From Couchioplanes caeruleus (GTDB lineage: Bacteria; Actinomycetota; Actinomycetes; Mycobacteriales; Micromonosporaceae), in contig NZ_CP092183.1 of the NCBI RefSeq assembly GCF_023499255.1, positions 3,344,501 to 3,408,500 of the forward strand: DNA of 64,000 nucleotides, read 5' to 3'. A program made the position numbers and the translations under genes. Below, piece by piece: positions 30,028-62,448 of the stretch. Every line of letters starts with the position of its first letter. Position 1 is the first letter of the stretch. The notes under the pieces were generated by a model that made no database searches, was not told the origin of the DNA, and worked only from the letters and a program-made list of their open reading frames with translations.

Positions 30028-30058
30028 GACGCCATCGCACGATCACGGGGGAAACATC

Positions 30059-35650: not shown

Positions 35651-35679
35651 CCCACTTTCACGAACCGGGAGACCCCCTC

Positions 35680-44100: not shown

Positions 44101-44253
44101 TGGCACGAACCGGCCGGGCGGCTCCTGGGCCGGCTCGCCGAGGGCAGGGTGACCGGGCCCCGGATCACCGGCCTGCCGCTCGCCGGCGCGGCCGGGGCGC
44201 TGTCGCTGCTGGGGAACGGCGAGAACATCGGCAAGGTCGTCCTCATCGCCTGA
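44101..44253 (+). pseudogene. C-terminal remnant of a zinc-type (quinone-oxidoreductase-like) dehydrogenase
   Basis: A 50-codon stretch ending GNGENIGKVVLIA and a stop, with GRLLGRLAEGRVTGPRITG before it. This is the pattern of the last helix and strand of medium-chain zinc/quinone oxidoreductases. Upstream in the same frame the similarity ends abruptly and there is no start codon with ribosome binding site. It abuts and slightly overlaps the end of a rhamnosidase remnant on the other strand, marking a rearrangement junction. Confidence 0.55.
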
Positions 44254-44939
44254 TCGCGGCGCTGAAGGTGTGATGCCCCGACGGGACCGTGAAAGTGGCG
44301 TTGGCGCCGTTCATGCCGATGAACGTCGCTCCCGGCGGCCGGGTGACATCGCCGCGACGGTCCGCGGGCACGTGGACCGTGGCGATCGCCCCGGCGGGGA
44401 TGGCGACCTCGAGAACAAAGCTTTTCGGCGTACGCCTCCAGCTTGAAAAGATTGTGCCCCGGGGGGAATCGACGTGGGCCGAGGCGTGCCGCAGATCGCC
44501 GACCGGGGTGGGTCTGACGGTGATCCGGGCGTAGCCGGGAGCGGCCGGCTCGATGCCCGCGACGCTCTGGTGGAGCCAGTCGTCGACGGTGCCGAGGAAG
44601 GCGTGGTCGTGCGAGCGTGAACCGGCGTCCCACTCCTCCCACATGGTGGTGGCACCGAGGAAGGACTGGGCGGAGGTGACGCGTCCGCTGTCCCAGACGT
44701 CGGCGTGCCCGTCCGCGGTCGTCGAGACCTCGAGCCGGTACCCGGTCTGCGCGCCCGGCGCCGCCACGATCCACCCGAGCAGCGGCCGGGCGGCGTCCAC
44801 GCCCAGCGGATCGGCCCGGTGCTCGACGGTCGGCCCACCGACCCGCACCGCCGGGCCGGCTACGGCCGCTCCGGCCGGGGGTGCTGTCGGAGACCGCGAG
44901 GGAGAGCACGAGCAGGACCGCAGAAATGAATCGTTTCAT
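44243..44939 (-). pseudogene. Alpha-L-rhamnosidase remnant: frameshifted and internally deleted
   Basis: The leftward gene begins with a signal peptide (MKRFISAVLLVLSLAVSDS) at 44939. At a run of five Gs on the top strand (44877-44881) the frame slips; reading the next frame continues with RVGGPTVEHRADPLGVDAARP and DVWDSGRVTSAQS, the N-terminal bacterial rhamnosidase domain. This is joined directly to TTMWEEWDAG, SHDHAFLGTVDDWLHQSVAG and DSPRGTIFSSWRR, which belong to the end of the catalytic barrel and the C-terminal beta domain. Full-length family members are about 900-1000 residues, so most of the GH78 catalytic barrel is gone. It is a dead gene, bordering the toxin island on one side and the contractile-system locus on the other. 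Confidence 0.75.
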
Positions 44940-45117
44940 TGACGCCTCCAGCGGCAAACATATGGCCCTCCGTCGATGTGGTCAACGCGATGCATCCGAG
45001 CGGGCGCAACGGGGGCGGGAACAGCCGGCGCTGATTCGGCGCGGATGTCCGACAGTTGAGTCCCGGTGCGGCGGCACGTGGCAGTTCAATGGTGTCAGCG
45101 CGAGAGATCGGACAGCC

Positions 45118-48100: not shown

Positions 48101-49494
48101 TGCAACGGCTGCTCGCCGCCAAGGCGGCACCGGCGGAACTCCTGCGCGCGATCGGGGCCGCCGACGACGCCCTCGTGAAGGCGATGAGCGAGGCGGGCAC
48201 CCTGACACAGCTCAGCTCCGCCCCACGGGTCCTGTTCTTCCTCACCCAGGACCCGGCGGTCGCGGCCCGGATCCTCGGCGGGCCGTTCCGGTATGCCCCG
48301 GCCGCGCTGGAACGCTTCCTCCAGCGGCTGGAGCCGCTGTCGGCCGACGCCGGACGCAGCGTGATCCGGGCACTCACGGCCGACGACCCCCTGCCGGCCG
48401 AGCTGCTGCTCGCCGCGGCCAGGCAGGTCGGCCCGCTCGACGAAGCGGCCCTGCTGCGGCTGCGGCAGCTGCACGAGGCCGAGCTGCAGCGTGCGGCCGC
48501 CGCCGAGGTGAAGCCGCCTCCGAAGCCCCCGGCCGAGACGCCGCCGCCCGCCGATCCGGTTCAGCCGCCGCCGGAGAAGCCGGCCGAGCAGCCGGCCGAC
48601 AACGCCGCCGACAAGCCTGCCGAGGCACCGGAGAAGCCGTTCGTCATCGAGACGGCCACGCTGGACGAACTCCTGGCCGCACTGGAGAAGAAGGGCTTCA
48701 CCCGCGGCGACCTGCGCCTGTTCATGGGCGCGAACACCAGGCTGTCGGCACCGCTGGCCCGGCGTGTCGCCCGGCTGCTGGAGCGCTTCACGCCCGCCGA
48801 GGTCCGCGAGCTCGGCGAGTTCCTCAGCCGGCACCGCGTACGCCTCAACGACCGGACGGTCGACCTGCTCGACGAGGTTCCCGGCGGCAAACTCGCCGAC
48901 ACGATCGAGCGTATGGAGAACGTCCAGGCCGGCAAGGCGCCGCACCGCGACGAGTGGTCCGAGTCCGACCTCGCCGAGCGGGCGGACGTCACCATCCACC
49001 CGGGTGCTCCACCGCCGTTGGCCCAGTTCGTCGAGACACCCGGCAGCGTCGCCCTGCGCGGTTCGATGCTGAAGGCCGGGCACCCACCCCCGCCCCCCGG
49101 ATACCACGCGCACCACATCATCCCGGAACGGGAGTTCGGGCCCGGCCTCGACTGGATGCGCGAACGGCTCAGGAGCGCGGGCAGCGGCATCAACGAGGCC
49201 GAGAACGGCGTGTTCCTGGCGGGCAGCCGGGCCACGGCGAACCCGGAACTGACCCGGCTGCACAACTCGTACCTGCACGCCGGGCCCCAGGCGGAGTACG
49301 CATACACGCTCACCCGCCGGCTCGGCGACCTGCACGGCCAGGAGTTCATCGCCGAGGTACGCACGATCGCCGAGGAGATGGCCGAGGGCAGGTTCCGGAC
49401 CCTGGAGATCCCGCGCGGGTGGAAGGGCAAGTGGGAGCCCGGGATGAGCGCGCCCGTCGACCCGAAGGTGACTCCCGAGCGGATCGAGGAATGA
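45118..49494 (+). CDS. Large multidomain protein with C-terminal AHH (HNH/EndoVII-type) nuclease domain; candidate injected effector
   Basis: 1458 residues from the GTG at 45118 (preceded by a weak AGAGA site); the open frame extends upstream without coding character. There is no signal peptide. The N-terminal ~700 residues are not recognised (charged, helical). Residues about 714-755 hold a hydrophobic pair (LTIFLLAETVILGGVLIIEL and a following helix), then helical repeats and a Pro/Glu/Ala linker (about 1131-1178). The end contains YHAHHIIPE with AHH at 1331-1333, then NGVFL, RLHNSYLH and a helix, matching the AHH nuclease fold of polymorphic toxins. Lack of a signal peptide and position next to a contractile injection operon make it a likely cargo protein. 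No obvious immunity gene follows; the next gene is a regulator. Confidence 0.75.
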   Translation: MTSDGTDSAQQDRALTFPVRLRGASPAEILAGDAWEDAAHAALSRAFAAARRSLPAGEAVGGGVVLHPPEVAGPDLLPHQVAALRALLERAIRRAARQQRLPIAAVAEPPAARKPARGGHMPAKVAKREDVGAPYRIRQKVVFRLTVRRFFEIRKRFGRSDGGATDPVDPMELYFAQLDETVTAVAWLVEARRKYEFPLLSHDVTAAYGATRKPGEYVWSISGWGQLRKAFAEADKDGKIAAAIPDFSRSGFVEAAPGGAGTVVLPGGWVIFVAMVLPTMALGDVVELKPDRTVEVPVSEAGPLVTQQAFAAVTGADWAATVRALPDYKIPVAVTPFTVRRQVHERALVALLRAYRKTPLGLVVPLSDRIPEELGPTLGPFVAALADPAAPAAARKGPVNGSWPARSVGVHLSPELAADLRMRVLRQANAAFIDAQATELRRILRLENGFWSADRKEAFRAYIIGWDRGRRDPALFVLVLDELRDRGDLDAFFTAVGEMWSTDTYLKRLIVRLVVGSPYADDPRMGAVVAGIEALVHSGERGKYDVDKQEIWLLGDSDKIVRAAGDSADDAAGVVAVVDPYYSEASRVHQPKPEILEKLKEPTRKKVSELIGRMVCNPGERMTREELLQKAMQEAAKEMAPLEEKDLVKVTLRRTVRVLRLERRTEGGVPEVYVHYQPVQKIGDNPWVPAGEVIIGSPTAFEAYLTYYHVQHLEEALTIFLLAETVILGGVLIIELGIATGVQLFFFVSVQLAIYRFTTDAEDRTLQGYLTAALKGELDAVGFKGLSLAVKQVVGFGAGFLVTRELVSEVATKWIVFAFRGGLTAAGIGAMEVTYQFADDLLHYSHCSGWSSPGTYWTRFKHGFVAGLVMEFAVVPLLSPALRPALEKASTALEAAGALRSSGLSYGETIAALLKGSREVEAAIARTVEHDSGAVIAKGFRAKLTEILDAVGREYRSRAYQSLLELYGPELTGAAAEGLERLLRTAGQRQIDGLLQRLLAAKAAPAELLRAIGAADDALVKAMSEAGTLTQLSSAPRVLFFLTQDPAVAARILGGPFRYAPAALERFLQRLEPLSADAGRSVIRALTADDPLPAELLLAAARQVGPLDEAALLRLRQLHEAELQRAAAAEVKPPPKPPAETPPPADPVQPPPEKPAEQPADNAADKPAEAPEKPFVIETATLDELLAALEKKGFTRGDLRLFMGANTRLSAPLARRVARLLERFTPAEVRELGEFLSRHRVRLNDRTVDLLDEVPGGKLADTIERMENVQAGKAPHRDEWSESDLAERADVTIHPGAPPPLAQFVETPGSVALRGSMLKAGHPPPPPGYHAHHIIPEREFGPGLDWMRERLRSAGSGINEAENGVFLAGSRATANPELTRLHNSYLHAGPQAEYAYTLTRRLGDLHGQEFIAEVRTIAEEMAEGRFRTLEIPRGWKGKWEPGMSAPVDPKVTPERIEE

Positions 49495-50188: not shown

Positions 50189-51277
50189 TCAGCTGGTGGC
50201 AACGGTGAACATGCGCAGGGCGCCCAGCGCCCGGCCCTTGCGGTCGCGCTGGACGATGTCGATCGCCTGCAGGGCGCCGGGCCGCTCCTCGTCGGTCTGT
50301 ACCAGCAGCTTGCCGCGCTTGGCGTCCTCGAAGGTCGGCATCCGGTGCCGGTGCGGCCGGTGGTGGCCGCGGTGCGGGAAGTGTGGCCAGTATCCGCCCC
50401 GGATGTCCGGATGGTCGTCGTCGCGGTCGTCGTGCGGCGGCTCGCCGATGTCGTCGACCGACAGTTTGGTGGTGAGCGGACGCTCCGAGACGAAGAGCGG
50501 GAACGGTTCACCCTTGACCAGAACCGACAACTGACCGAGCTCACCCTCACTGCCCTCGGCGGCGATGACGAAGTCGTGGGACAACAGCAGCGCGCGGTCC
50601 CCGGCGCCCAGGCCGGCCCGCAGGTCCACGGGCTCGAACGCCACGAACGTCTCCTCGACGCCGCGCGGGGCGGGCATCACCAGGAACTCCATGATCTGCT
50701 CGGCTCGCAGACTCATCGGCAGCACGGTGATGTTGCGCTGCCCCTGGTGCTGGTCGGTGACCACCGCGAAGTCGTCGGCCTCGAGCAGCTGGCGCCCGTC
50801 GTCGGCGTTGTCGGCGTCGGAGTAGACGTTGGCGACCAGGCACATGTGCCCGTCGCCGTTGAGGGTGGCGTTGAGCTCGGCGTTGGTCGGAATCCACGGA
50901 GCCGACCCGTTGACCAGGCAGGTGACCACGTGAGCGTCGGTCGGCCCGGAACTGCCGGAGCCGGGCGCCACCGAGCCGACCGATCCGCGCAGCCGCTGGA
51001 TGGCCTGGTTGGGGTGGGCGATGCCGATGAACGGGTTCATCACGTACGCGTCGACGTGCACGTCGGTGACCGGCGCCTGACCCTTGTTGGACACCCGGAC
51101 CTTGACCGACGTCTGCGCGCCGACCCGGGTCTGTGTGTCGTTGGGCCCCCCGCTCAACGCGATGCTGAAGTTGTTCCACTGCGGGTTCGCGCCGGTGTAC
51201 GGGCGGGTGCCGTCGTCCTTGGTGGGCGACGAACCGAAGTCGACGCTGAGGTAGAGGTCGCCGGGAATCGGTGGCAT
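50189..51277 (-). CDS. Last gene of the injection operon: unassigned protein with CARDB-like start and His-rich segment
   Basis: 362 residues, RBS GGAGG before the ATG. The N-terminal part (VKVRVSNKGQAPVTDVHVDAYV) looks like a CARDB/Ig-type beta domain; the middle is beta-rich. A short segment around residues 283-315 is very rich in His, Asp and Pro (WPHFPHRGHHRPHRHRM), possibly a metal-binding or flexible loop. As the last gene of the operon, after the tail/wedge genes, it is positioned where fibre or receptor-binding proteins are usually encoded. No family was recognised. Confidence 0.7.
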   Translation of the reverse strand: MPPIPGDLYLSVDFGSSPTKDDGTRPYTGANPQWNNFSIALSGGPNDTQTRVGAQTSVKVRVSNKGQAPVTDVHVDAYVMNPFIGIAHPNQAIQRLRGSVGSVAPGSGSSGPTDAHVVTCLVNGSAPWIPTNAELNATLNGDGHMCLVANVYSDADNADDGRQLLEADDFAVVTDQHQGQRNITVLPMSLRAEQIMEFLVMPAPRGVEETFVAFEPVDLRAGLGAGDRALLLSHDFVIAAEGSEGELGQLSVLVKGEPFPLFVSERPLTTKLSVDDIGEPPHDDRDDDHPDIRGGYWPHFPHRGHHRPHRHRMPTFEDAKRGKLLVQTDEERPGALQAIDIVQRDRKGRALGALRMFTVATS

Positions 51278-51305
51278 TGCTGGCCTCCTGTACGGGGAAT
51301 CCGGC

Positions 51306-51923
51306 TCAGGCGGTGTAGACGACCTGGAATCCGGAGAGGGTGACGGTGTCGCCGGGTCCGGCGCCGTCGAGGGTGGCTAGGACGAAGTACCGGAACTGGA
51401 CGGTGTCGACCAGCGCGTTGTTGGGATCGACGGGCGCGTTGAGGTCGAACGGGTTGGTGTCGCCGGTGACCCGGGCGAGTCGCTCGGCCGGGGCGACGGT
51501 GGACAGCAGGCGGGAGCGCATCAGCGCCACCCGCAACGTCCCGGTGCCGCTGTTCTGGCCCAGGCTGTGGAACGACGCCATCCGGGCGCCGTGGGGCAGC
51601 GACACCGACTGCACCCCGGCGAGGCTGGTGAGGCCTCCGGAGCGGGACGCGAATCCGGACGTGTCCTGCACCCATGCACCGGTTCCGGCGACCGGCGCCA
51701 GGGCCGGGGACAGGGTGAGCGTCTGCTGCACCGGCCCCGGTCCCTGACCGAGCGCCGTCAGCGCCGTGTTCACGTCGGTGACCACGTCGTGCAGCGTGGT
51801 GAGGTCCGCGGCGAGCGCCCGGAACCGGGCGTTGAACCCGTTCGGGCCGCCGGCCTGGACCCGGTCGCGGTTGTCGACGTAGTCGGTGTGCTGGAACGTC
51901 GGGTTGAAGACGACATCAGCCAT
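51306..51923 (-). CDS. Unassigned beta-rich protein of the injection operon (possible fibre or baseplate accessory)
   Basis: 205 residues beginning MADVVFNPTFQHTDYVDN, with a short helical N-terminal part (RFRALAADLTTLHDVVTDVN) and a beta-rich C-terminal domain ending in TLSGFQVVYTA. This N-terminal helix plus C-terminal sandwich layout resembles small tail-fibre or baseplate-attached proteins. Its start overlaps the end of the upstream tail gene by eight bases. Function inferred from position only. Confidence 0.65.
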   Translation of the reverse strand: MADVVFNPTFQHTDYVDNRDRVQAGGPNGFNARFRALAADLTTLHDVVTDVNTALTALGQGPGPVQQTLTLSPALAPVAGTGAWVQDTSGFASRSGGLTSLAGVQSVSLPHGARMASFHSLGQNSGTGTLRVALMRSRLLSTVAPAERLARVTGDTNPFDLNAPVDPNNALVDTVQFRYFVLATLDGAGPGDTVTLSGFQVVYTA

Positions 51924-54900
51924 GCTCGGCGTCCTTTCGGAGTCGGGAGACGGAACGGTGCAGCCGGAACTTCGGGTACGTGTAGTCCGGGTCCACCGAC
52001 GGGCTGCCGGCCAGCTCGACGACGGCCGGGCGGATCGCCCGGGTCAGCACCTCGACGCCGAGCGGATGCAGGGCGTGCACCACATTCATGATCAAGTCGT
52101 ACTGGTCGCGGCTGATCGTCGAACCGGCCGGGACGGTGGGCCGCAGCCGGATCTGCATCGCGTACGGGCCGTTGGCGCCGGCTTCCCGGAACGCCGCCTG
52201 CACCCACACCCGGCCCGCCCGCTGTCCGATCAGCCGTACCTGCGGCAGCGAGGTGGTGGTCACGCCGGCCTCGCCCGGCGTCGGCTCGAGCGAGCCGCTG
52301 GACCAGCTCAGCCGCGTCGTCGCGGACACCGTCGAGGGGTCGGGAACCACCTCCAGGTCGATCGACGCGTCCTCGGGCACGGTGCGCGGGCCGCGGACCT
52401 CGATCAGATCCTCGGCGGCGTGCCGGATCTCGACGGTCGTACCGGACACCGAGACCCACGCGAATCCGGCCGCGTGGGCCCGGGCCGCCAGCGCCCCGAC
52501 GGCCAGGCTCGAATGCCGCAGGGTCAGCGCCCGGCCCTGCGCAGCCAGCGTGAGGGGCGCCCCGGCGGCCACCGGGACCAGTGCGGACACCACGGTGAGC
52601 GCCCCGGGCACCCCGGTCAGGCCGTCCAGCAGCGCCACGAGCCGGCGGGACACCCCGCGCTGCATCCGCCGCGCCGAGGCCGAGGCGTACGTGGCCCGGG
52701 CGTCGGTGACCGTGTCGAGCAGTCCCGGGTCCACCGGGTCACCGGGCGCACCGGCCACCTCCGGCCCGGCGCCCAGCGTGCCGTCGGCGGCGATCGTCGC
52801 GCCGGCGTCCAGCGTGGCCGGGCGCACGTGCACCGCGACCGACGCGGTGCTGGTGAATCCCCGGTGCAGCAGGTCCACGCTGATCACGGTCAGGCCGGGC
52901 AGGACACCGTCGACGGTGGCCGATGCGCCGCCGGCCGTGAGCCGCACGCGGCCCGGCCCGAGCCCGGTCGCCACCGACCAGATCAGCTCGGCGCCCGGCG
53001 GGGGGACCGGGGACGCGGTGAGGGTCAGCGTGCCCCCCACGTCCACCGCAGGTTCCGCACCCTCCGCGGGCGGCGGTGCGGCGACGAGGACCACCGCGCT
53101 ACCGGGCGGGCAGGAGGCGTACACGCCGGCGTCACGGGGCTGGGTGCGGACCCAGGTGAAGCCGGCCTCGTGGGCCCGCGCGGCCAGCGTGCCCGCGTGC
53201 ATCCCGGGGTGGGCGACGATCAGTCCGCGTCCGGCGCAACGGGCGTCGTCCGCGTCCGGCGTCCAGGCCTGCGTCACCTGCAGCCGTCCGGGCACCGGTC
53301 CCACCAGGTCGAGCAGCCGGTCCAGGTCGGCGGCGAGCGGCGGTTGCATCAGATGCGGGTCGCCCGAGGTGACCGGGCCGTAGTCGACGCGGGGATCGTC
53401 GTGGCGCAGCAGCAGCGCCGGATCGATCCGCCGATCGTCGGGATCGCCGTACAGGTCGGCCTCGGTGGTACCGCGCCGCCCGGTGGCGTCGATGCTCTCA
53501 CCCGGACCGAGCGCCGCCGGCACCACCCGGACCAGGGTGTGCCCGCGTGTCACCGCGCTGTCCGCGTCGTCCACGACGATCGGGTCGGTGACCCCGCCGA
53601 TCGTGCCCACCGCCTCGTTGAGCAGCTCGGCCAGCCCGGCCGGGGTGGGCAGCACCCAGCGCCGGAAGATCCGCAGCCGGCGGCGGTAGTGCCCGTCGCT
53701 CTCGCCCAGCACAGGCGCGAACTCGACCCGGGCGACCCGGCTGAGCCGGACCTCGTCGAGCACCGCGCGCAGCCCCCCGGCCCCGGGGCCGATGACCAGC
53801 GGTACGGCGGCGGTGAGCGCGCCCAGTGCGGTGGCGTCGGCGAGGTCGCGCCGGATGCCGTCCACCCACAGCGCCGCCGACGCCTCGGCCCGGTCCACCA
53901 CGAGGGCGAGATGCGTGAACCGGTCGCCCGCAAGGGTCAGGTCGGCGTGCAGCACCAGCTCCCGGGTGTCGTCCGCGACGGTCGCCCGGACGGCCCGGGC
54001 CAGTCCCCGGCCGAATCCGCCGACCTCGACGGTCCAGCCCGGCCCGGTGGCGCCCCGGCGGGACAGGATCCTCGAGTCCGGGGTGGACACGTCCGGTTTG
54101 ACGAAGCACTCGGCGGTGAACGACGCCGTCGCGGGCAGGTCGAAGGCGGGATCGGTGGCGACGGTGGCCGCGCCGGGTCCGGCGAAGGTCAGGGCCGGAC
54201 CGTAGCGGCCCGGCAGGCCCGGGGTCGCGCTGCCGGACAGGACGGCGGGGTGGGCGGTCCGGCCCGGGAAGCGGCCGACGGCGTCCTCTGCGCCGACCGC
54301 CGCTCCGGGCGCGTCGTCCAGGTGGTACAGCGCGATGGTGTCGTCGTCGACCGGGTACGGCAGCGGCGGGAACCGCGGGACGGCCAGGTCCGCGCCGATC
54401 AGGTCCAGCGTCGGCCCGGCCGCGTGGTCGAGCCGGCGCTGAGCCGCGGTCCGGGCGATCTGCCGGCGCAGCGCGTCGCGTTCGGCGCCGAGCACCCACA
54501 GCAGCCGGGCCAGATTGCCGAGCAGCGCGCTGAGCGCCCACTGCTCCGCGGCCGGGCCGGGTGCCGCGACGAACGCGGAGCCGCTGCGGCGGGCCACCGT
54601 GATCCGGGTGAGCCGCGCCGCGCCGGTGGCCGCGGCGGGCACCGGCACCGGCACCGACTCGCCGGCCAGAGTCCCGGCCCGCAGCACGACCGGCACGTCA
54701 GCGCCGCCGCCGGGCAGCGCCGGGTCGGAGACCCGTACCGTCACCCGGGTCTCCCGCTCCAGGTCGCCGAGGGTACGCAGGAGGTACGACGGCACGGGTA
54801 CGGCACCGAACCTGGCCTGATGGTCGGTGAAGTCGTACGCGGCGACATCGGCGGCGGCGGGCGTACCGGCGACCGGGGCCAGGGGCAGCGCCAGCACGTC

Positions 54901-54996
54901 GCCGCCGGCCGCGAACGGCTGGGTCAGCCGCCTCGACATCCGCCCGGTCGCGCCCCGGGCCACCGATTCCAGGTCGGCGCTCAACGGCAGGGTCAT
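51916..54996 (-). CDS. Large LamG-containing tail/wedge protein
   Basis: 1026 residues. The N-terminal ~200 residues contain a helical segment (WALSALLGNLARLLWVLGAE, AGPTLDLIGADLAVPR) in the style of gpI-like phage wedge/tail proteins. Residues about 210-400 form a LamG/concanavalin-like domain (TIALYHLDDAPG, SFTAECFVKPDVST, FTHLALVVDRAEASAALWVDG), suited to glycan binding. A module with 'GTLAARAHEAGFTWV' occurs near residue 610 and again as 'GALAARAHAAGFAWV' near 840, an internal duplication flanking Ig-like strands. The ATG overlaps the baseplate J stop (ATGA). It probably links the baseplate to the target surface. Confidence 0.75.
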   Translation of the reverse strand: MTLPLSADLESVARGATGRMSRRLTQPFAAGGDVLALPLAPVAGTPAAADVAAYDFTDHQARFGAVPVPSYLLRTLGDLERETRVTVRVSDPALPGGGADVPVVLRAGTLAGESVPVPVPAAATGAARLTRITVARRSGSAFVAAPGPAAEQWALSALLGNLARLLWVLGAERDALRRQIARTAAQRRLDHAAGPTLDLIGADLAVPRFPPLPYPVDDDTIALYHLDDAPGAAVGAEDAVGRFPGRTAHPAVLSGSATPGLPGRYGPALTFAGPGAATVATDPAFDLPATASFTAECFVKPDVSTPDSRILSRRGATGPGWTVEVGGFGRGLARAVRATVADDTRELVLHADLTLAGDRFTHLALVVDRAEASAALWVDGIRRDLADATALGALTAAVPLVIGPGAGGLRAVLDEVRLSRVARVEFAPVLGESDGHYRRRLRIFRRWVLPTPAGLAELLNEAVGTIGGVTDPIVVDDADSAVTRGHTLVRVVPAALGPGESIDATGRRGTTEADLYGDPDDRRIDPALLLRHDDPRVDYGPVTSGDPHLMQPPLAADLDRLLDLVGPVPGRLQVTQAWTPDADDARCAGRGLIVAHPGMHAGTLAARAHEAGFTWVRTQPRDAGVYASCPPGSAVVLVAAPPPAEGAEPAVDVGGTLTLTASPVPPPGAELIWSVATGLGPGRVRLTAGGASATVDGVLPGLTVISVDLLHRGFTSTASVAVHVRPATLDAGATIAADGTLGAGPEVAGAPGDPVDPGLLDTVTDARATYASASARRMQRGVSRRLVALLDGLTGVPGALTVVSALVPVAAGAPLTLAAQGRALTLRHSSLAVGALAARAHAAGFAWVSVSGTTVEIRHAAEDLIEVRGPRTVPEDASIDLEVVPDPSTVSATTRLSWSSGSLEPTPGEAGVTTTSLPQVRLIGQRAGRVWVQAAFREAGANGPYAMQIRLRPTVPAGSTISRDQYDLIMNVVHALHPLGVEVLTRAIRPAVVELAGSPSVDPDYTYPKFRLHRSVSRLRKDAEHG

Positions 54997-56309
54997 GGCG
55001 TCACCAGCTCGAGGTCGTGCAACTCGGCGTCGGTGCGGAGGACCGGCAGCTCGGTCGGGCCCATCGTGAGGTTCTGTCCCACCGCGGCGTCCACGGCTGT
55101 GCTGAGGTACGGCACGTCGCCCAGGGTGATCCGCCCGAACGCGGGCGGGTGCCGGCGCAGGTGCAGCCGCTGGACGTCGACCACGCCGGCCACCTCGACG
55201 ATGGTGCGGACCACCCGGCTGTACAGCACGTCACCGCCCAGCCGCAGGTCGCCGAGCCCGGCGGCCAGCGCCTCCCGGATGGCGGTGGACAGCGCCGCCT
55301 GGTCCTGCCCCGGCTCGGTGACGATCCGGGCGCGGACGCCGACGTCGATGTGGTCGGCCTCCACCACGTTGGGGTGCACGCCGGCCGGCCGGACGAGGTC
55401 GATCGCGGCCGACACCCGCTCGAACACGCCGGGTACCGCCCCGGTGGTGGTCCAGGGCCAGCGGAAGTCGTGCGCCACCACGACGTCGAACCGGTACGGC
55501 TCGCCGATCCGCCGTTCCGCGTTGAACAGCCGTTCGGAGAAGAGGAACTCTCCGAAGAAGCTCTGCGACACGTCGACGCCGCCGAGCGGGTCGGCCAGCA
55601 GCACGTCGATCACGCCGTCGACGTCCAGCGCGTTCTGCCGTACCGCCTCGGCGGTCCACAGCGAGCGGGAGATGCCGAGTTGCCGCCCTCGGTAGCTGTC
55701 GTCATCCTCGCGCCCGTCGCCCCCGGTGAGGTCCTGCTGGTTGACGACGGTGAGGTCGGCGGGGCCGAAATCGGCCAGATACACCGCCCGGTACGCCGGG
55801 TCGACGGCCGTGATCGCCCCGGCCGGCACGTTGCCCGCGGCGCCGCGGCGGAAGGCCTGCACGGCCACCGTGGCGACCGGCGCGGCGGCGGTCAGGGCGA
55901 CGACGGCCGCGGTCGCGTACGACTGGCTCTGCCCGGGGGCGAGCAGGATCGTCCCTTCGCCGACCAGGTACGTCCGTCCGGGCAGCCCACCGGTGAGGGT
56001 GAGGGTCACGGTTCCGGTGGCGAACGTGTCACGGCGGCCGAGGCCGACGTCGTCGCCGAGCAGATCGAGGGCGTCGCCGGTCGCGGTGGACACGAAGGCG
56101 CTGTAGTAGTAGTCCTCCAGCCGTTTCCACAGCTCGGCGTCCTCGTGCGCGGTGGCCTCGAGCAGTTTCCGCAGCGGGCTGGTCGAGGTGAGGTCCGGGT
56201 CCAGCCCGAGGGCGGCCCACATCTGCCGGGCGCGGTCCATCGCGTCGCCCAGGATGGCGTCGAACCCCTTGAGGACGAAGCCGTCCCGGGTCACTCCGAA
56301 GTCGCTCAT
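54993..56309 (-). CDS. Baseplate J-like wedge protein
   Basis: 438 residues from the ATG of MSDFGVTRDGFVLKG; the frame is open further upstream but that part is shadow. The family pattern is clear: a helical start (ATAHEDAELWKRLEDYYYSA), ATGDALDLLGDDVGL, a beta domain with VQAFRRGAAGNVPAGAIT, GGDGREDDDSYRGR, and a C-terminal region with PAGVHPNVVEADHIDVGVRA. Baseplate J/gp6-type proteins form the ring of wedges that opens on contraction. It follows the gp25 gene by five bases. Confidence 0.9.
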   Translation of the reverse strand: MSDFGVTRDGFVLKGFDAILGDAMDRARQMWAALGLDPDLTSTSPLRKLLEATAHEDAELWKRLEDYYYSAFVSTATGDALDLLGDDVGLGRRDTFATGTVTLTLTGGLPGRTYLVGEGTILLAPGQSQSYATAAVVALTAAAPVATVAVQAFRRGAAGNVPAGAITAVDPAYRAVYLADFGPADLTVVNQQDLTGGDGREDDDSYRGRQLGISRSLWTAEAVRQNALDVDGVIDVLLADPLGGVDVSQSFFGEFLFSERLFNAERRIGEPYRFDVVVAHDFRWPWTTTGAVPGVFERVSAAIDLVRPAGVHPNVVEADHIDVGVRARIVTEPGQDQAALSTAIREALAAGLGDLRLGGDVLYSRVVRTIVEVAGVVDVQRLHLRRHPPAFGRITLGDVPYLSTAVDAAVGQNLTMGPTELPVLRTDAELHDLELVTP

Positions 56310-56314
56310 CGTCC

Positions 56315-56752
56315 TCAGCGCTCCACGTCGGCGAGCACGACGGCCGCGGTGTCGTCGGTGGTCTCCACGGTCACCAGCACCCGCCACAGCCGGCCGCCGT
56401 GGTCCTCCTGCGTGGCCGCGGCGGCAGCGGCGGGGAAGTCGGGATCGTCGTCGAACAGCACGCCGGTCACCTCGCGGACCCGGGGATCACCGGACAGCGT
56501 CCGCAGCACCTCCAGCCGGATCAGCTCCTTGAGGATGGTGCGGTCGTGGTTGCCGCTGAACGCCTCCCGGGCGTCCAGGCCGTAGGTGGCGTTCACCCGG
56601 TCGGTGCCGTACGGGGTCAGCAGCCGCAGGGTGAGCGCCTGGGTGAGGTTGGACAGGCCCTGGACGGGTTCCACGCCGGCGGCGGTGAACACCAGGTCGC
56701 CGTCGGAGAGCAGGAAGCTGGCTCCGAATCCGGCCTGCGGTACGACGGTCAT
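56315..56752 (-). CDS. gp25-like baseplate wedge protein
   Basis: 145 residues, start MTVVPQAGFGASF set by overlap with the preceding stop (ATGA). The GPW/gp25 pattern is seen in LSNLTQALTLRLLTPYGTDR, followed by DRTILKELIRLEVLRTLSGDPRVREV. gp25 is the most conserved wedge component of phage tails, tailocins, extracellular injection systems and T6SS (TssE), where it joins sheath and baseplate. Confidence 0.88.
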   Translation of the reverse strand: MTVVPQAGFGASFLLSDGDLVFTAAGVEPVQGLSNLTQALTLRLLTPYGTDRVNATYGLDAREAFSGNHDRTILKELIRLEVLRTLSGDPRVREVTGVLFDDDPDFPAAAAAATQEDHGGRLWRVLVTVETTDDTAAVVLADVER

Positions 56753-57093
56753 GAGGCCTCCAGCACGGTCTGGCCCGCGGAGTCGACCTGCCACAGCACG
56801 GGCCGCGGCGGGGTGGCGTTGGTCAGGCCCTTGGCGGTGTCGAGCAGCACCGGCTGGTTGCCGACGCTGAGCGTGGTGCTCATCCCGGCGGTCACCGAGA
56901 CGACCTTGAGGCAGGGGGTCTCGCCGGCGTTCGCGTTCGTGTTCGTGCAGCCGGTCACCGTGGCCGCGAGCAGGTCGGCCTGCACCAGGACCGGGCTGCC
57001 GGCCGCGGTCAGCGACGAGGTCGACGCCTGCGCGACGACCGTGCCGCTGTGCGCGCACTTGATCGTGGAGTCGGTGGTCAGCACGGCGGCCAT
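56749..57093 (-). CDS. PAAR-like spike tip protein
   Basis: 114 residues. It starts MAAVLTTDSTIKCAHSGTV and has regularly spaced Cys residues (KCAHSG, GCTNTNANAGETPCLKV) and short beta repeats, the appearance of PAAR/DUF4280-like proteins that cap the spike with a metal-stabilised cone. Its ATG overlaps the hub-spike stop and its stop overlaps the gp25 start, both ATGA, so stoichiometry is probably fixed by coupled translation. Longer frames in this phase are shadows of the hub gene. Confidence 0.8.
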   Translation of the reverse strand: MAAVLTTDSTIKCAHSGTVVAQASTSSLTAAGSPVLVQADLLAATVTGCTNTNANAGETPCLKVVSVTAGMSTTLSVGNQPVLLDTAKGLTNATPPRPVLWQVDSAGQTVLEAS

Positions 57094-58778
57094 CAGGAGA
57101 TCGCCACCTTCGCACCGTCGAGCTTCATCGACACCTGTCCGTTGGTCAGGGTCAGGGACTTCTGGTCGGTCGCGATGGTGACCTCTCCGTCCGCGTTGAT
57201 CGTGATCCTGGTGCCGGAGTGGTGCTCGATCACCACGGTGTCGTCGGCCGGCGGCTCGGGCCGGGTACCGACGTCCGGCAGGCTCTTCTGACCCACCGTG
57301 ATGTGCAGCGCGCGGGCCTGGATCACCCGGTGGCCGCCGGCGTCGGTGAGGTCGTTGACCCCCTTGCCGGTGGGCAGCCCGTCGCCGTCCAGCCCGGTCG
57401 GCAACGCCAGCCAGTAATCGCCCGGCTCGTTGGGCGGCGGTTCCAGCCGCGGCTTCTCCGACCAGATCCAGCCGGTGGCGACCGCGTCGTTGACCAGGCC
57501 GCGGTTGTGCGCCAGCAGCGCCCGCATCTTCGGGTAGACCGGCGTCACCAGGCCCACCCGGTGGAACGCGAACGGTGAGGCGACCGGCTTGTTGTGCAGC
57601 TCGACGTCCGTGCCGACCTCGCTGGTGACGCTCGGCGCCACCTCGCCGGCCGGCGGGTTCTGCCCGTAGTGCAGGTCGGCCAGATGACGGCCGTCCTTGC
57701 CGGGCCGGTACGCGGTCACCACACCGACGTCCACGACCGGGTGGTCCTCGCGGTTGCGGGTGATCACGTCCTGCCAGCGGTCCACCACCCCCTGGACCCC
57801 GCCCGGCGCGCGGACCCGGACCCCGGCCGCCACCGCGGTCAGGACCAGCGTGCAGGTGTAGCCGTTCGCCGCGCCGTACGCGTGCGTCACCCGGCTGATC
57901 CGCAGCGGGCCCGGCGGCACGTCGTCCAGGCCGGACACCGTGACCGTCTGACCCGGTCGCAGGCCGGGATGCCCGAGAACGGTCACCTCCAGGCCGGTGC
58001 GCACCGGCGGCCCGGCGTCGGCGCTGCGCTTGGCACCCGGTGTCACATCCTCCTTCTGCGCATCCACCCGCGAGACCAGATTCAGGTCCGGGTCGACGCG
58101 CACCGGCGCCGGGGTGGCGCCCACCGCCGCGCCCAGCCGCACCTCGCCGTCGCCCACCACCAGCGGGACGTCGGCCGCGTCGGCCAGCTCCTGCAGGGCG
58201 GTCAGCGTGGTGGCGGTGCAGACGCTGATGTCGCCCACCGATCCGGGAATGGTGGACTGCCGGGCCAGCGTCACCTCGGCCGCCTGAACCAGGTCGCGGA
58301 CCAGGGTGAGGCGGGGGAGGTTCTTCGGCCGGTCGAGGCGGGCCGCCTTCTTGAGCAGTTTGTAGCCCGCTTCCTCCTGGCCCTCGATCACCGTGCGGGA
58401 GACACCGCCGCTGCCGATCCCGGTGGTCACCGCGATGACCCGGCCGGTCATCACCGGCCCGGCCCCGAACCGGGTGATCGGCTCGTCGAAGTACCCGAGG
58501 CTGATCGTCGCGCTGAGGCCGCCGGCCGGGTAACCGGCCCGCAGCTGGGCGATCTGCGACGCCGGCAGGTCGGTGAGCGTGATGGAGAAGGTGTCGGCGG
58601 CGGCGCCTTCCCCCATGCTGATGGACACCTCGGCGTCGAGGGTGAGCCCGCCGGCGTACACGTCGTTGGTGACGGTCAGCGGCAGGCCGATCCCCGCGAA
58701 CGAGGCCACCGCGCCGAGCAGGCCCCCGCCGCCCCCGGCCGGGGCGATCCGTATCTTGTGCCAGAGCACGAAACTCAT
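57093..58778 (-). CDS. VgrG-like fused hub and spike protein
   Basis: 561 residues. The first ~350 residues resemble gpD/gp27-type hub domains (SISMGEGAAADTFSITLTDL, TATTLTALQELADAADVPLV, GLRPGQTVTVSGL). The C-terminal part has an OB-fold-like stretch followed by a beta-helix-like end (VIEHHSGTRITINADGEVTI and TLTNGQVSMKLDGAKV). This fusion of hub and spike is typical of VgrG and of injection-system spikes. The PAAR-like gene directly follows, and the plug gene directly precedes, with 4-base overlaps. Confidence 0.88.
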   Translation of the reverse strand: MSFVLWHKIRIAPAGGGGGLLGAVASFAGIGLPLTVTNDVYAGGLTLDAEVSISMGEGAAADTFSITLTDLPASQIAQLRAGYPAGGLSATISLGYFDEPITRFGAGPVMTGRVIAVTTGIGSGGVSRTVIEGQEEAGYKLLKKAARLDRPKNLPRLTLVRDLVQAAEVTLARQSTIPGSVGDISVCTATTLTALQELADAADVPLVVGDGEVRLGAAVGATPAPVRVDPDLNLVSRVDAQKEDVTPGAKRSADAGPPVRTGLEVTVLGHPGLRPGQTVTVSGLDDVPPGPLRISRVTHAYGAANGYTCTLVLTAVAAGVRVRAPGGVQGVVDRWQDVITRNREDHPVVDVGVVTAYRPGKDGRHLADLHYGQNPPAGEVAPSVTSEVGTDVELHNKPVASPFAFHRVGLVTPVYPKMRALLAHNRGLVNDAVATGWIWSEKPRLEPPPNEPGDYWLALPTGLDGDGLPTGKGVNDLTDAGGHRVIQARALHITVGQKSLPDVGTRPEPPADDTVVIEHHSGTRITINADGEVTIATDQKSLTLTNGQVSMKLDGAKVAIS

Positions 58779-59149
58779 CCCGCCACCCCCGCCACCACCT
58801 CGGACCGGTACGCACCGGCGCCGTGCAGGTTGCCGATCGCGATCCGCGCGCTGCGCACCACCAGCGCCAGCTCGCCGGCGCGGTAGACCAGGCCCGGGAT
58901 CACCTTGCGGCGCAGCAGCACGGTGCCGCCGGTCACGTCGTCACGGATGACGGTCATGACCAGGTACGCGCCCGGCGCCGGCAACGTGACGGCCGCGGCC
59001 AGCCCCTCCGGCGTGGTCGCATCGGGCAGAACCTCCTCGGCGATGTGCACGGCGAGGCCGAACACGTAGCTGCGGTTGCCGAACACGAGCCGGAACGACT
59101 GCGGGAAGCCCTCGTCCGGGTTCACCGGCAACCGGAGGAAGGTGCTCAT
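58775..59149 (-). CDS. Baseplate plug/hub-associated protein (Pam3 gp18-like)
   Basis: 124 residues: FLRLPVNPDEGFPQSFRLVF, then beta strands LVMTVIRDDVTGG and a C-terminal GNLHGAGAYRSEV. This resembles the short beta proteins that plug the central hub in simple contractile tails such as cyanophage Pam3. The match is by pattern only. It precedes the hub gene with ATGA overlap, which fits a partner that sits inside or on top of the hub. Confidence 0.55.
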   Translation of the reverse strand: MSTFLRLPVNPDEGFPQSFRLVFGNRSYVFGLAVHIAEEVLPDATTPEGLAAAVTLPAPGAYLVMTVIRDDVTGGTVLLRRKVIPGLVYRAGELALVVRSARIAIGNLHGAGAYRSEVVAGVAG

Positions 59150-59167
59150 CGGACATGACCTCCAGGT

Positions 59168-59671
59168 CTAGATCGGCGGGCCGGGCGTACGGGGAACCGG
59201 GTTCGGCGGCGGTGCCGAGCCGGCGGTCGCGGTCGCCACCGCCAGTGCGATGTCGGCCGCCTCCCCGATCAGCGCGGACAGGTTCGACCTCGGTACGTGC
59301 TGCAGGCTGATCGACACGTCGAGCGCGTCCCGCTTGCCGGTGCTGTGCGTGATCCGCAGATCGGTGATCTGCATGTCGAGGCTGACCGTCATCCCCGAGA
59401 CGACCGGGATGCCGGCCACCGCGAGCGCCGGCGCCGCGGCGGCCACCAGCGCCCGGCTGGTCAGCGCCATGGCCTCCAGCGCCTTCTTGATCAGCAGCCG
59501 TTTCGGCCCGATCAGGACGGCCTCCACGGCGATCGTCTTCACCGTCGGCTGAGTGGCCTGCGACCAGCGGCTGCCCATGATCCGTTCGATCCGGTAGCCC
59601 TGGCTCATCGTCATGCTCTGCACGTGGACCAGCGGGACCGCGCCGATCAGCACCGGGCGGTTGCCGCTCAC
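59168..59671 (-). CDS. Unassigned tail/baseplate protein (tube initiator or gpU-like)
   Basis: 167 residues, GTG start overlapping the previous stop (GTGA). It starts VSGNRPVLIGAVPLVHVQSM and has GSRWSQATQPTVKTIAVEA, a hydrophobic central helix (MALTSRALVAAAAPALAVAG) and a beta-rich end with DVSISLQHVPR. It lies where phage operons normally encode the tape measure and tube-initiator proteins, but at this length it is far too short to be a conventional tape measure. A tube-initiator, gpU-like or minimal tape-measure role is possible. Confidence 0.6.
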   Translation of the reverse strand: MSGNRPVLIGAVPLVHVQSMTMSQGYRIERIMGSRWSQATQPTVKTIAVEAVLIGPKRLLIKKALEAMALTSRALVAAAAPALAVAGIPVVSGMTVSLDMQITDLRITHSTGKRDALDVSISLQHVPRSNLSALIGEAADIALAVATATAGSAPPPNPVPRTPGPPI

Positions 59672-59850
59672 GGCCGGCTCGACATTTCCCGGTCCAGCTC
59701 GGCGAAGACGCGCTCGACCACCCGGTTCACCACCGCGTCGTCCACGTCACCGACGATCTCGACCTCGACCGGGAAGTAGTAGTGGACCACCGGGCCGGGT
59801 TCGGCCCGGCCGTCCGGCGGCGCCGAGGGCCGCACGTCGTCGCCGGCCAC
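59668..59850 (-). CDS. Very small protein of the injection operon
   Basis: 60 residues from a GTG three bases after the tube stop. It has a disordered N-terminus and a compact C-terminal unit VVHYYFPVEVEIVGDV followed by an amphipathic helix. Small proteins of similar length (Afp6/DUF5908 type) occur at this place in extracellular injection systems, though no sequence match can be asserted. Overlap with neighbours on both sides supports it as a real gene. Confidence 0.6.
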   Translation of the reverse strand: MAGDDVRPSAPPDGRAEPGPVVHYYFPVEVEIVGDVDDAVVNRVVERVFAELDREMSSRP

Positions 59851-59853
59851 GGC

Positions 59854-60246
59854 TCAGTCCTCCACGGTCACGGTGAGCGCCATGCACGAGAAGTTCGCCT
59901 GGGGCACCCCGTCGACGGTGATGTTGCTCGGCGAACCCGAGGTGACCACGCAGCGGGCGAACTTGATGGACTTGAAGGACCAGTCGGTGCCGACCTTCTC
60001 GGCCACGTTCACCGAGAACTCGGTGCCGTTGACGGCCAGTTCGGTCAGGTCGGCCACCGCCTCGGCGACCGCGGGTACGGTCATCGTGAAGGTGAACGTG
60101 AACGGTTGCCGGACGTAGCCCGTACCGTCGGCCTCCAGGCTGTGGATGACCGTGTGCGGCACGTTGAACGTGGTCTGCAGGTTGGAGATCGGCGTGATCG
60201 TCTTGTCGCCGAGCTTGACTTCGAGACGGGTGTTCCAGTCGGCCAT
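59854..60246 (-). CDS. Inner tail tube protein
   Basis: 130 residues, RBS AAGGAG before the ATG. The sequence MADWNTRLEVKLGDKTIT, ISNLQTTFNVPHTVIHSLEA, and repeated beta strands with one helix (AVAEAVADLTELAV) match the small Hcp/gp19-type tube fold of contractile tails. Position directly after the sheath gene is the canonical order. Only one tube gene is present, whereas many extracellular injection systems have two or three. Confidence 0.8.
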   Translation of the reverse strand: MADWNTRLEVKLGDKTITPISNLQTTFNVPHTVIHSLEADGTGYVRQPFTFTFTMTVPAVAEAVADLTELAVNGTEFSVNVAEKVGTDWSFKSIKFARCVVTSGSPSNITVDGVPQANFSCMALTVTVED

Positions 60247-60259
60247 CGCCGCACGCTCC

Positions 60260-61387
60260 TTATTCGAACTTCAACGTGATCGCGATGCGGTGCACGGCCC
60301 CGGCGTAGTCGACCGCCGCCAGCACCTCGACCACCCGCTGGTTCTGGGCGTCGTTGATCTGTTGCAGCTCCGACGCGGTCAGCGTGGCCGGCGGCTTGTC
60401 CAGCAGGGCGAGGATCGGGACGGTGACGTCGTATCCCTCGATGACCTCCTGGCGTACCTGGGGATCCAGGACCGCCTCCATCTGGGCGATCAGCGCCCGC
60501 AGCCCGGACCGGCTGATCCGCAGGTTGCCGATCGAGCGGATCAGCGTCGCCTTGAGGAGGAAGGACAGGTTGTCGACCGTACGGGTGATGTCGACGTACT
60601 TCTTGCCGCCGGGGTTGCCGGTGTAGCCCTCACCCAGATAGATGCCCTGCCCGGGGAAGAGCGGCGGGTCGACGAGCCAGTTCACCCCGGCGCCCGCCGG
60701 GCCGCTGCTGAACGTCTCCGACCCGTTGACGGCCTGGATCTCCGCCGGGGTGAAGGCGGCCGAGCTGACGTTCACCTGCTTCAACAGCATCGAGATGTGC
60801 GGCTCGTAGCCGGCGATCGTGCCGGCCACCGCGGCGGCGACGTCCTCGTCGGACTTGTGGGCGACGTACACCATGCGGTCGCTCGCCAGCGCGCCGGCGA
60901 CGATGGTCGGATCGGTGGCGCCGGCCGCCAGCATGGCCACGCCGATGCGTTCCGCCCCGTCCGTTCCGGTGGTGGAGACGCTGACGACGTGGTCGGCCAG
61001 CTTACGGATGGCGCCGGTCGCGGTGGCCGCGGCCGCGTTGAGGGGCGTGTTGGCCAGGCACACGATCTGCACGTCCGCGGTCTCCAGCGCGGTGAGCGCC
61101 GCATCCCAGTTCGGCGTGGCCGCATCGACCCGGACCCCGGTGACCACGGTGGGGCCGGGACTCTGCGAGAAGCACAAGGCGATGGCGCGGCCGAGATCAC
61201 CGGGCGCGCGCCTGCGGGCCTCGCCGGGGTCGGTGAACGCCACGGGTGCGCCCACCGTCAGCAGGTCGGGCGGCGGGTTGGCGGCCGGCGGCGTGACCGC
61301 GCCGACCACGGCGATGTTGCCGAACGCCCGGACGGCGGGCGCGAACAGATCGGCAACCGGATTGACGCGTATGTACCGGACGGGCAT
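60260..61387 (-). CDS. Contractile tail sheath protein
   Basis: 375 residues, on the short side for sheaths. The N-terminal arm, the central domain (CFSQSPGPTVVTGVRVD, DVQIVCLANTPLN, VYVAHKSDEDVAAAVAGTIA) and the conserved C-terminal domain (FPGQGIYLGEGYTGN, TRTVDNLSFLLKATLIRSIG, GYDVTVPILALLDKP, YAGAVHRIAITLKFE) fit the phage sheath family. The last strands would form the inter-subunit handshake that drives contraction. Sheath precedes tube by 13 bases. This is the strongest marker that the operon encodes a contractile machine. Confidence 0.9.
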   Translation of the reverse strand: MPVRYIRVNPVADLFAPAVRAFGNIAVVGAVTPPAANPPPDLLTVGAPVAFTDPGEARRRAPGDLGRAIALCFSQSPGPTVVTGVRVDAATPNWDAALTALETADVQIVCLANTPLNAAAATATGAIRKLADHVVSVSTTGTDGAERIGVAMLAAGATDPTIVAGALASDRMVYVAHKSDEDVAAAVAGTIAGYEPHISMLLKQVNVSSAAFTPAEIQAVNGSETFSSGPAGAGVNWLVDPPLFPGQGIYLGEGYTGNPGGKKYVDITRTVDNLSFLLKATLIRSIGNLRISRSGLRALIAQMEAVLDPQVRQEVIEGYDVTVPILALLDKPPATLTASELQQINDAQNQRVVEVLAAVDYAGAVHRIAITLKFE

Positions 61388-61411
61388 CGGTGCGATCCTC
61401 TCTCACTGTCC

Positions 61412-61609
61412 TCAGTGGAACTTGCGATGGAGCTTGTGCCGCAGCCGTTCCAGCTCGGCGTGCCGCTCCCGTGCGGCCACCGCTTCGTCGGCTGCGGTCG
61501 GCGCTTCGTCGGCTGCGGCCGGCGCCTCGGCGGTGGTGGTGCCGGCCGGCCGGGACCGGTCCGTGGCGCGCTTGCGCCGTGCCGGTGCGGGCTCGTCGGA
61601 TTCGGGCAT
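61412..61609 (-). CDS. Small charged helical protein of the injection operon
   Basis: 65 residues starting MPESDEPAPARRKRATDRSR with a GGAGG site, an Ala-rich middle and an Arg/His-rich amphipathic C-terminal helix (ERHAELERLRHKLHRKFH). It lies between the first operon gene and the sheath. The family is not recognised; a chaperone or sheath-docking role would be speculation. Confidence 0.65.
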   Translation of the reverse strand: MPESDEPAPARRKRATDRSRPAGTTTAEAPAAADEAPTAADEAVAARERHAELERLRHKLHRKFH

Positions 61610-61623
61610 CGGACCTCCAGTGC

Positions 61624-62448
61624 TCACGGCGGATCGGCGACCAGGCTCAGCACCCGGCCGCGGGCGAACAGATTCCGGACGGCGGCGGCGGTGACCACGC
61701 CACCCAGCGCCGAGCCGTCCACGACCACCGCCACGGCCAGCGGCGAGGCGGCCCGGCCGAGCAGCGGGTCCTTCGGGCCGGTACGGGTCTGCGCGGCGAT
61801 CGTCCGGACGGTGACCGCGGCGCGCATGGCCGCGGTCAGCTCGAGATCCGGGCGGATCAGCAGGGCCAGGTCGGCCTCGATGTCGTGCGCGTTCGCCGGG
61901 GCGGCCGGGTCGAACGGGCCGGCCGCGCGGAACCGCACCTCGGTCTTCAGGTACTCGTACGCCTCCCGGAGATCTTCGACCGTGCTGAGCCGGTGCCGGG
62001 CGAGGAAGGCGTCGAGGTCGATGAAGCGGAACTGCGCCCGGAACTCGTCGAGCGTGGCGAAATCGTCGAGGCCGCGGCTGACGGCCGACTCGATCCCGCC
62101 CGGGTCGACGTCGGCGACGGTGTGCACGACGACCCGGGCCAGCAGGTCGACCCAGACCGGTCCGGCACCGTCGCGGGTGTCCACGGCGAGATCGGTGGTC
62201 AGATACTCGGGATGATTGCGGGTCCACGACCCGCGGTGGCTTCGCACCGGGTACAGCGGCACCTGAGCTTCGACGCCGCTGACGGTGACCGCCGTGATCC
62301 GGTCGATGCGCACGTGGTCCAGGTCGTAGACCGAGCCCAGCAGCATCGTCAGGTCGGCGGTCGGGATCGCGCCGGGCGGGGCGATCAGCGCTTGCAGCCG
62401 GGCCGGGTCGGCCAGCTCCAGCAGCGCCCGATCGGCGAATCCCACCAT
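61624..62448 (-). CDS. First gene of the injection operon: unassigned 274-residue protein
   Basis: No signal peptide or membrane helix. Mixed alpha/beta sequence starting MVGFADRALLELADPARL, with features such as SHRGSWTRNHPEYLTTDLAV and HRLSTVEDLREAYEYLKTEVRF. In related systems the gene before the sheath often encodes the tube/sheath terminator (Pvc16/DUF4255 type); the length would fit but I do not see that family's pattern. It is the most promoter-proximal gene, 74 bases from a palindrome. Confidence 0.6.
   Translation of the reverse strand: MVGFADRALLELADPARLQALIAPPGAIPTADLTMLLGSVYDLDHVRIDRITAVTVSGVEAQVPLYPVRSHRGSWTRNHPEYLTTDLAVDTRDGAGPVWVDLLARVVVHTVADVDPGGIESAVSRGLDDFATLDEFRAQFRFIDLDAFLARHRLSTVEDLREAYEYLKTEVRFRAAGPFDPAAPANAHDIEADLALLIRPDLELTAAMRAAVTVRTIAAQTRTGPKDPLLGRAASPLAVAVVVDGSALGGVVTAAAVRNLFARGRVLSLVADPP

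Follow-up and report, generated by a model that had tools for sequence, protein, structure and literature searches.

Introduction

Several described contractile injection systems (CISs) come close to the locus analyzed here, two of them from Streptomyces. The effector Tme of the S. davawensis CIS is described as a very large tape-measure-related protein with transmembrane stretches and DUF4157 that ends in a nuclease; its gene immediately precedes those of the baseplate (locus BN159_7576; PMC11126660). The S. lividans SLP particle carries tape-measure-like cargo, Sle1 and Sle2, with exchangeable C-terminal domains; Sle1 is described as linked via a coiled-coil N-terminal region and a DUF4157 partner, with its gene upstream of the sheath (PMC13277306). 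In the archaeal, type VI secretion system (T6SS)-like CIS of Halogeometricum borinquense, no tape-measure homologue is reported and sheath lengths are uneven; as described, it is without solely the plug, tape measure and crown and therefore keeps the ATPase (PMC11566945). Diffocin and the R-type tailocins have a phage-like gene order, no ATPase and a full coiled-coil tape measure, and in diffocin, 80alpha and T5 the C-termini of tape measures lie next to the hub region, at the baseplate, in phages as trimers (PMC11329794). Here we describe a contractile-tail operon of 14 leftward open reading frames (ORFs) in Couchioplanes caeruleus, at positions 50189..62448 (minus strand) of a 64-kb window (3344501-3408500) of the complete, single-contig 8.42-Mb genome (GCF_023499255.1, NZ_CP092183.1).

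Cargo loading and tail-length control without a tape measure are open questions for contractile injectors. We consider it probable that this operon encodes an injector in which the tape measure has shrunk to a hub anchor of 60 residues (p60) and toxins dock through a related N-terminal module. Whatever its mechanism, the contractile machine is genuine, conserved and linked to toxins, and its kind has been little described. Tape-measure-related effectors are already published (Tme, Sle1), and what is new here is the p60-type variant of the module: a stretch of 40-100 residues that occurs both as a tiny stand-alone gene and at the start of many unrelated toxins, making it a small, testable candidate loading tag with a probable origin in phage tape measures. 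In the literature that we searched, with supplements and most subscription journals outside its scope, neither the injector family nor the p60 module is described. The family is without several hallmarks used in surveys of extracellular CISs (eCISs) and, judging from the selection rules as described, may be under-counted (PMC8213781, PMC12210884).

A contractile tail operon without an ordinary tape measure

A first-pass annotation of the sequence had proposed fourteen leftward genes, and all were recovered. It had most of them overlapping by 4 bases, which is true of only 4/13 junctions; 6/13 overlap at all, and spacing ranges from 28 bases apart to 8 overlapping. The genes, in order of transcription, and the neighboring toxin gene are:

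61624..62448, minus strand: p274, the first gene; no Pfam, PHROGs or NCBIfam family, kept in relatives
61412..61609, minus strand: p65, small basic/acidic protein; tblastn match solely in locus L004
60260..61387, minus strand: sheath, 375 residues, divergent; weak match to PHROGs tail sheath (E 0.002)
59854..60246, minus strand: tube, 130 residues, named by position; no library family (Pfam, PHROGs)
59668..59850, minus strand: p60, putative remnant of a tape-measure C-terminal anchor; family-level PHROGs match and module profile (E 0.046)
59168..59671, minus strand: p167, candidate Dit-like protein or tube initiator; Pfam Dit_like at E 0.019, below cut-off
58775..59149, minus strand: p124, plug candidate by position; no library family (Pfam, PHROGs)
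57093..58778, minus strand: hub-spike, 561 residues; PHROGs tail protein (E 4.9e-10) and baseplate hub (E 2.4e-5)
56749..57093, minus strand: PAAR-like tip, 114 residues, named by position and pattern; no Pfam family
56315..56752, minus strand: gp25-like wedge/sheath initiator; PHROGs baseplate (E 2.3e-11)
54993..56309, minus strand: baseplate J; Pfam (E 2.7e-20) and PHROGs wedge (E 5.4e-51)
51916..54996, minus strand: large tail protein with LamG domain, 1026 residues; Pfam Laminin_G_3 (E 2.8e-11)
51306..51923, minus strand: p205, tail-end or fibre-like; no Pfam family, conserved in relatives
50189..51277, minus strand: p362, the last gene, Ig (immunoglobulin)-like by eye; no Pfam family, present in some relatives
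45112..49494, plus strand: putative cargo, a 1460-residue AHH-nuclease polymorphic toxin; Pfam AHH (E 7.8e-8)

The eCIS (Afp/PVC) core set of sheath, tube, hub-spike, gp25 and baseplate J is thus present in one cluster, the sheath by a weak match and the tube by position. Of the names given in the first-pass annotation, baseplate J, hub, gp25 and LamG stood in the library searches and the sheath did so weakly, while tube and plug matched no family. For p124, the candidate role as plug comes from a presumed resemblance besides its position. The PAAR-like tip gains outside support because its profile matches the tip-position genes of two canonical eCIS clusters (E 5.9e-12 and 8.9e-10). Pfam assigned no family to the tube, plug, tip, p60, p65, p205, p274 or p362; NCBIfam gave nothing beyond a VgrG_rel match to the hub-spike below cut-off, and PADLOC called 0 families for six proteins. 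Baseplate_J matched one place in the whole genome in a Pfam search.

Between sheath and hub-spike, the gene order is sheath (375 residues), tube (130), products of 60, 167 and 124 residues, then hub-spike (561), so that, as first noticed, no ordinary tape measure lies between tube and hub. At the position of the eCIS tape measure (Afp14) there is no long gene, and PhageMin_Tail reached only E 0.17, below cut-off, in the C. caeruleus genome. The Pfam scan found no AAA+ ATPase (Afp15) in the operon, and a genome search with one eCIS ATPase query returned five partial AAA matches, none full-length and none within 500 kb, in line with the earlier remark that the cluster is without an eCIS-type ATPase. 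As for the Afp16/Pvc16 cap, p274 matched no Pfam family at E<=1; Pvc16_N reaches E 2.1e-42 in locus L051, whose canonical eCIS marks are a Pvc16-type cap, an AAA ATPase and a PF04984 sheath. DUF4157 (eCIS_core) gave 0 matches in the C. caeruleus genome in a run in which no control genome matched; the model matches 127/199 Streptomyces genomes. We rejected eCIS membership, given that tape measure, ATPase, cap and DUF4157 were not found. A complete prophage was also rejected, as anticipated: no head, packaging/terminase or integrase family was found among the flanking genes scanned.

The family resembles the Tme system in being a contractile tail found in Streptomyces with a very large effector that has transmembrane stretches, ends in a nuclease and is putatively related to tape measures, and in its spread: the described Tme sheath clade includes Actinobacteria, Proteobacteria, Chloroflexota and a plasmid (PMC11126660). 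Some clusters of that clade may belong to the window's family. S. davaonensis has members of the window's family at BN159_0111 (sheath) and BN159_0098 (toxin), distinct from Tme at BN159_7576, and no Tme-type DUF4157 effector of ~2200 residues before the baseplate genes was found at the operon. In Streptomyces, two clusters whose DUF4157 proteins equal Tme in size (2248 and 2094 residues) are canonical eCISs, and when the 14 profiles of the window's family were run against them, the tip alone matched below E 0.1. Among the matches listed, at least 35 DUF4157 places in 199 Streptomyces genomes had frames of 2100-2443 residues, and none of these was in the seven Streptomyces genomes with a window-type sheath. 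Compared with the Tme and Sle1 systems, the family has its own sheath and the p60-type module, with ATPase, cap and DUF4157 absent as far as tested. It shares with Sle1/Sle2 the setting of an actinobacterial CIS whose cargo has exchangeable ends and is putatively tape-measure-like (PMC13277306), but the link here runs through a short module akin to the C-terminal end of tape measures, and DUF4157 is absent. In contrast to diffocin and the R-type tailocins, it retains at most the C-terminal end of a tape measure.

Part of the p60 family resembles the C-terminal end of phage tape measures

In a search of all 38,880 PHROGs, the 27 p60 orthologues matched a single family, the tape-measure family phrog_15478, which eight of them reached at E<=0.01 (best 2.4e-6). 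Three of the four longer orthologues matched tape-measure PHROGs exclusively and always near the C-terminal end of the family, spanning positions 364-422 of 456 (E down to 1.7e-5), 2007-2074 of 2105 and 1555-1602 of 1651. For the part of the p60 family that carries this match, p60 appears to be what is left of a tape measure, its C-terminal end.

The tape-measure slot holds toxin-like genes in some relatives

We measured the distance between p60 and p167, hereafter the slot, in 28 loci. It is closed (-4 to 52 bases) in 14 (the window, L004-L014, L019 and L053) and filled (4618-6086 bases) in 13 (L015, L016, L018, L037-L040, L044 and L054-L058), counts that are not independent, as the window and L004 are close, as are four Micromonospora-like loci. 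The products of the slot genes are large (600-1470 residues), and two such genes often stand in tandem. PT-TG pre-toxin domains occur in L016 and L018 and AHH in L056; none of four slot proteins examined matched a PHROGs tape measure. The first-pass annotation had held that a long tape-measure gene here in close relatives would imply a deletion in C. caeruleus. Long genes do occupy the slot in relatives, but they are toxin-like and module-bearing, and simple tape-measure deletion was rejected because of this toxin-like content. Relocation of a cargo gene to the end of the operon is a likelier cause of the short gap here than simple loss.

A tree built from sheath, tube, p167 and hub (the L040 sheath row omitted) places the closed-slot loci in one weakly supported clade with an ultrafast bootstrap (UFboot) value of 55, rising to 93 without L012 and L053, nested under midpoint rooting in a paraphyletic filled-slot group. 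The simplest reading of this topology is a single closure of a slot that was ancestrally filled.

p60 and the toxin N-termini have a module in common

A profile built from nine effector N-termini, with no p60 included, was run against 8984 frames. All matches to E 0.17 were effector or slot N-termini or p60-like stretches, and 22/27 p60s were recovered at E<=1, the window's at 0.046. The profile matched inside the slot in 12/13 filled-slot loci, including 8/9 of those outside the model (at E<=0.16; the exception is L040). In the reverse direction, a p60-only profile used to search all loci (9110 distinct frames) matched, besides p60s, eight effector or slot N-termini at E<0.1 and a single other frame; an earlier profile (16 p60s, 6003 frames) agrees, with two unrelated frames near E 0.15. 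On whole genomes, the module profile matched 11/17 at E<1e-14, five of them outside the model (four on the operon's contig and one, G597, on another), and recovered p60 at E<=1 in 9/17.

HHalign gave 96.2% (P 2e-9) for p60 against 13 effector N-termini and <=2.4% for 24 decoys. The effector set comprised 13 of 20 N-termini, with four AHH toxins kept separate and L015, L016b and L056 omitted. The effector N-termini aligned to the AHH group at 90.4%. By BLAST, slot and operon-end toxins are alike solely over about the first 95 residues (e.g., 42%, E 9e-10), and none of seven effectors directly matched tape-measure PHROGs.

Several loci show further arrangements of the module. In L056, it occupies its own small ORF (5463-5729) just before the 1465-residue AHH protein. 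ORFs past the first toxin in L034 (4479-5378), L030 (4149-6263), L053 (2-1060) and L041 (3034-5274) begin with a portion of the module (E 5.5e-11 to 2.3e-4) and are possibly second toxins. Finally, an Acidobacteria bin has a p60-like stretch directly 5' of its operon-end toxin (L072 680-793, E 0.13), while its operon (locus L017) is without p60 between tube and p167, which is at most suggestive of anchor and cargo having moved together.

Toxin genes lie past the operon end in closed-slot loci

The AHH toxin gene adjoining the operon was overlooked in the first-pass annotation. Its 3' end lies 695 bases from the operon end, and its AHH domain, which is C-terminal, was matched on a longer ORF, 44881-49494. 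Relatives of the AHH protein were matched in 9/16 records of closed-slot loci, eight of them on the operon's contig and no more than ~2 kb beyond its final structural gene. The ninth is the genome of L004, where the operon reaches the contig end. The S. davaonensis relative ends in an SsdA-type deaminase, and the toxic domains across the toxins are AHH, SsdA deaminase and PT-TG, so that varying C-termini on a common remainder give the pattern of polymorphic toxins. A hydropathy scan found hydrophobic stretches in 16/20 toxins, which would suit membrane passage.

The operon is conserved and under purifying selection

The comparison covered at least 15 named loci, drawn from two bins (Xanthobacteraceae and Acidobacteria) and at least nine actinomycete genera. 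Gene order is retained in 15 named relatives and a plasmid, with some loci cut by contig or flank ends. Against the nearest relative, dN/dS was 0.04-0.28 in 11 of 12 genes measured (p65 and p362 excluded), including 0.039 for p167, and 0.67 for gp25. The operon is conserved and under purifying selection, and the cluster is therefore more than chance.

Of the 8000 candidates that were scored in sheath searches, 750 were homologous at E<=0.001, and the 120 matches listed include Actinomycetota and a Caldilineaceae bin, among others. The sheath occurs in 11/200 genomes of the same family (its own and two congeners at E<1e-140, the rest at ~1e-36 to 1e-48), in 7/199 Streptomyces and in 1/396 genomes of the phylum, namely its own. 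No relatives were found in viral contigs or in 50,697 phage records. Overall, the spread is patchy yet wide, covering Actinomycetota, Chloroflexota, Acidobacteriota, a Xanthobacteraceae bin and a plasmid. The plasmid, the only one with a sheath match among 72,556, is a 269-kb linear plasmid of Streptomyces canus (L019) that carries a complete operon with an AHH protein, a LysM protein and an M36 peptidase downstream; a 59-residue gene sits at the position equivalent to p65.

Proposed mechanism and alternatives

The missing tape measure noted in the first-pass annotation is a genuine anomaly, and the best explanation is that the tape measure shrank and the cargo gene was relocated. The operon would build a small contractile injection machine in which p60 keeps the tape-measure C-terminal end that sits at the hub in phages. 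From the sequence comparisons we infer hub docking, lumen loading, ejection and a cargo role for the window's AHH protein: p60 and the toxin module would bind the hub or plug as the phage tape-measure C-terminus does, a toxin would dock into the baseplate in the tape measure's place and occupy the tube lumen as sheath and tube grow, and sheath contraction would eject it. Toxin genes would ancestrally have occupied the tape-measure slot, the cargo gene having been relocated past the operon end in the window's clade.

Several observations weigh against this proposal, most of them concerning the window's own proteins. The window's p60 had no PHROGs match and is missing, by eye, a HEGE-type stretch kept in 19/27 orthologues. 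When the module profile was run on the C. caeruleus genome, p60 (E 0.42) was outscored by two non-operon places and the AHH toxin was not among the matches at E<=1. Direct HHalign comparison of p60 with the AHH group was weak (20.5%, P 0.001), and because effectors and AHH toxins align well, the link from p60 to the AHH toxin passes via the other effectors. In addition, the AHH gene is on the strand opposite to the operon, in L017 p60 is missing from its place between tube and p167, and the slot protein of L040 was missed by the module profile. The window's own p60 and toxin are thus tied only indirectly to tape measure and module.

Tail length could be set without a ruler, by a ruler encoded elsewhere or by the cargo. 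In the last case, the tape measure would have been split, its anchor left as p60 and as the toxins' address tag, with the docked toxin templating length, so that every particle would form around its own payload. Operon-end toxin lengths (1187-1460 residues, n=9) and slots of 4.6-6.1 kb (13 loci) would fit a length constraint but are no proof, and we regard this extension as tentative and rather unlikely.

Among the rival explanations, the one that survives best, though we consider it unlikely, is a T6SS-like machine without a ruler, membrane-docked or cytoplasmic, with tails of variable length, p60 as the plug and toxins that travel otherwise. A CIS without a tape measure and with uneven sheath lengths has been described in H. 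borinquense (PMC11566945), and our searches found no eCIS-type ATPase, DUF4157 protein or tape measure. The module common to p60 and toxins and the toxin genes in the slot of relatives argue against such a machine, as does the Pfam scan, confined to the operon proteins, which called no T6SS family, including the VipA/VipB sheath and membrane complex of T6SS i-iii. An ordinary eCIS with tape measure and ATPase encoded elsewhere would fit with genome searches that were partial (one ATPase query, one tape-measure family and DUF4157), but it is very improbable: those searches returned solely partial AAA matches, PhageMin_Tail at E 0.17 and no eCIS_core, and the window's sheath falls outside PF04984. 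Least probable of all is a tailocin or domesticated phage tail in decay after loss of the tape measure, since despite the phage-like gene order, missing ATPase and missing tape-measure gene, the operon is under purifying selection, its closed slot is common to 14 loci in one clade with the support given above, and phage records and viral contigs gave no sheath match. R-type tailocins are expected to have a full tape measure and lysis genes; no long tape measure was found here, and Pfam and PHROGs called no lysis family in the operon. The minimal eCIS subtype and the tailocin offered by the first-pass annotation are thus both disfavored.

Remaining genes and genomic neighborhood

Profile searches against sequences of solved structures in the PDB gave no relative for p274 (best E 0.31), nothing useful for the sheath (best E 0.04) and no match for p167, which had one non-significant PHROGs endolysin match (E 0.11). 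p274 is a conserved partner of the sheath, perhaps a putative tail terminator or cap. The sheath reached Pfam sheath C-terminus at E 0.12, below cut-off; PF04984 had no match in the C. caeruleus genome, which carries little information as the model also misses the window's sheath. The sheaths of L010 (9063-10502), L011 (10001-11443) and L019 (18001-19440) are ~480 residues long, with a ~110-residue insert after residue 30 that is absent from the window's sheath. Tube conservation among relatives is 48-98%.

The operon is flanked by lon (upstream, other strand), beyond which come housekeeping genes, and by a luxR-type gene (downstream). Library scans identified lon, an FGGY kinase, MaoC, a methyltransferase and a serpin on the lon side, and the luxR-type gene, the AHH protein, a rhamnosidase piece and RibD_C on the other. 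The rhamnosidase piece (44243-44848, minus strand; 201 residues) matches the N-terminal Ig domain, a catalytic scrap and the C-terminal domain of alpha-L-rhamnosidase and looks like an internal deletion remnant. Farther out, at 29999-41967 (plus strand), two very large genes stand in tandem, one encoding an 1883-residue protein with LamG and carboxypeptidase-regulatory repeats and the other a 2197-residue protein with an RHS repeat; the pair is perhaps a separate toxin or surface system.

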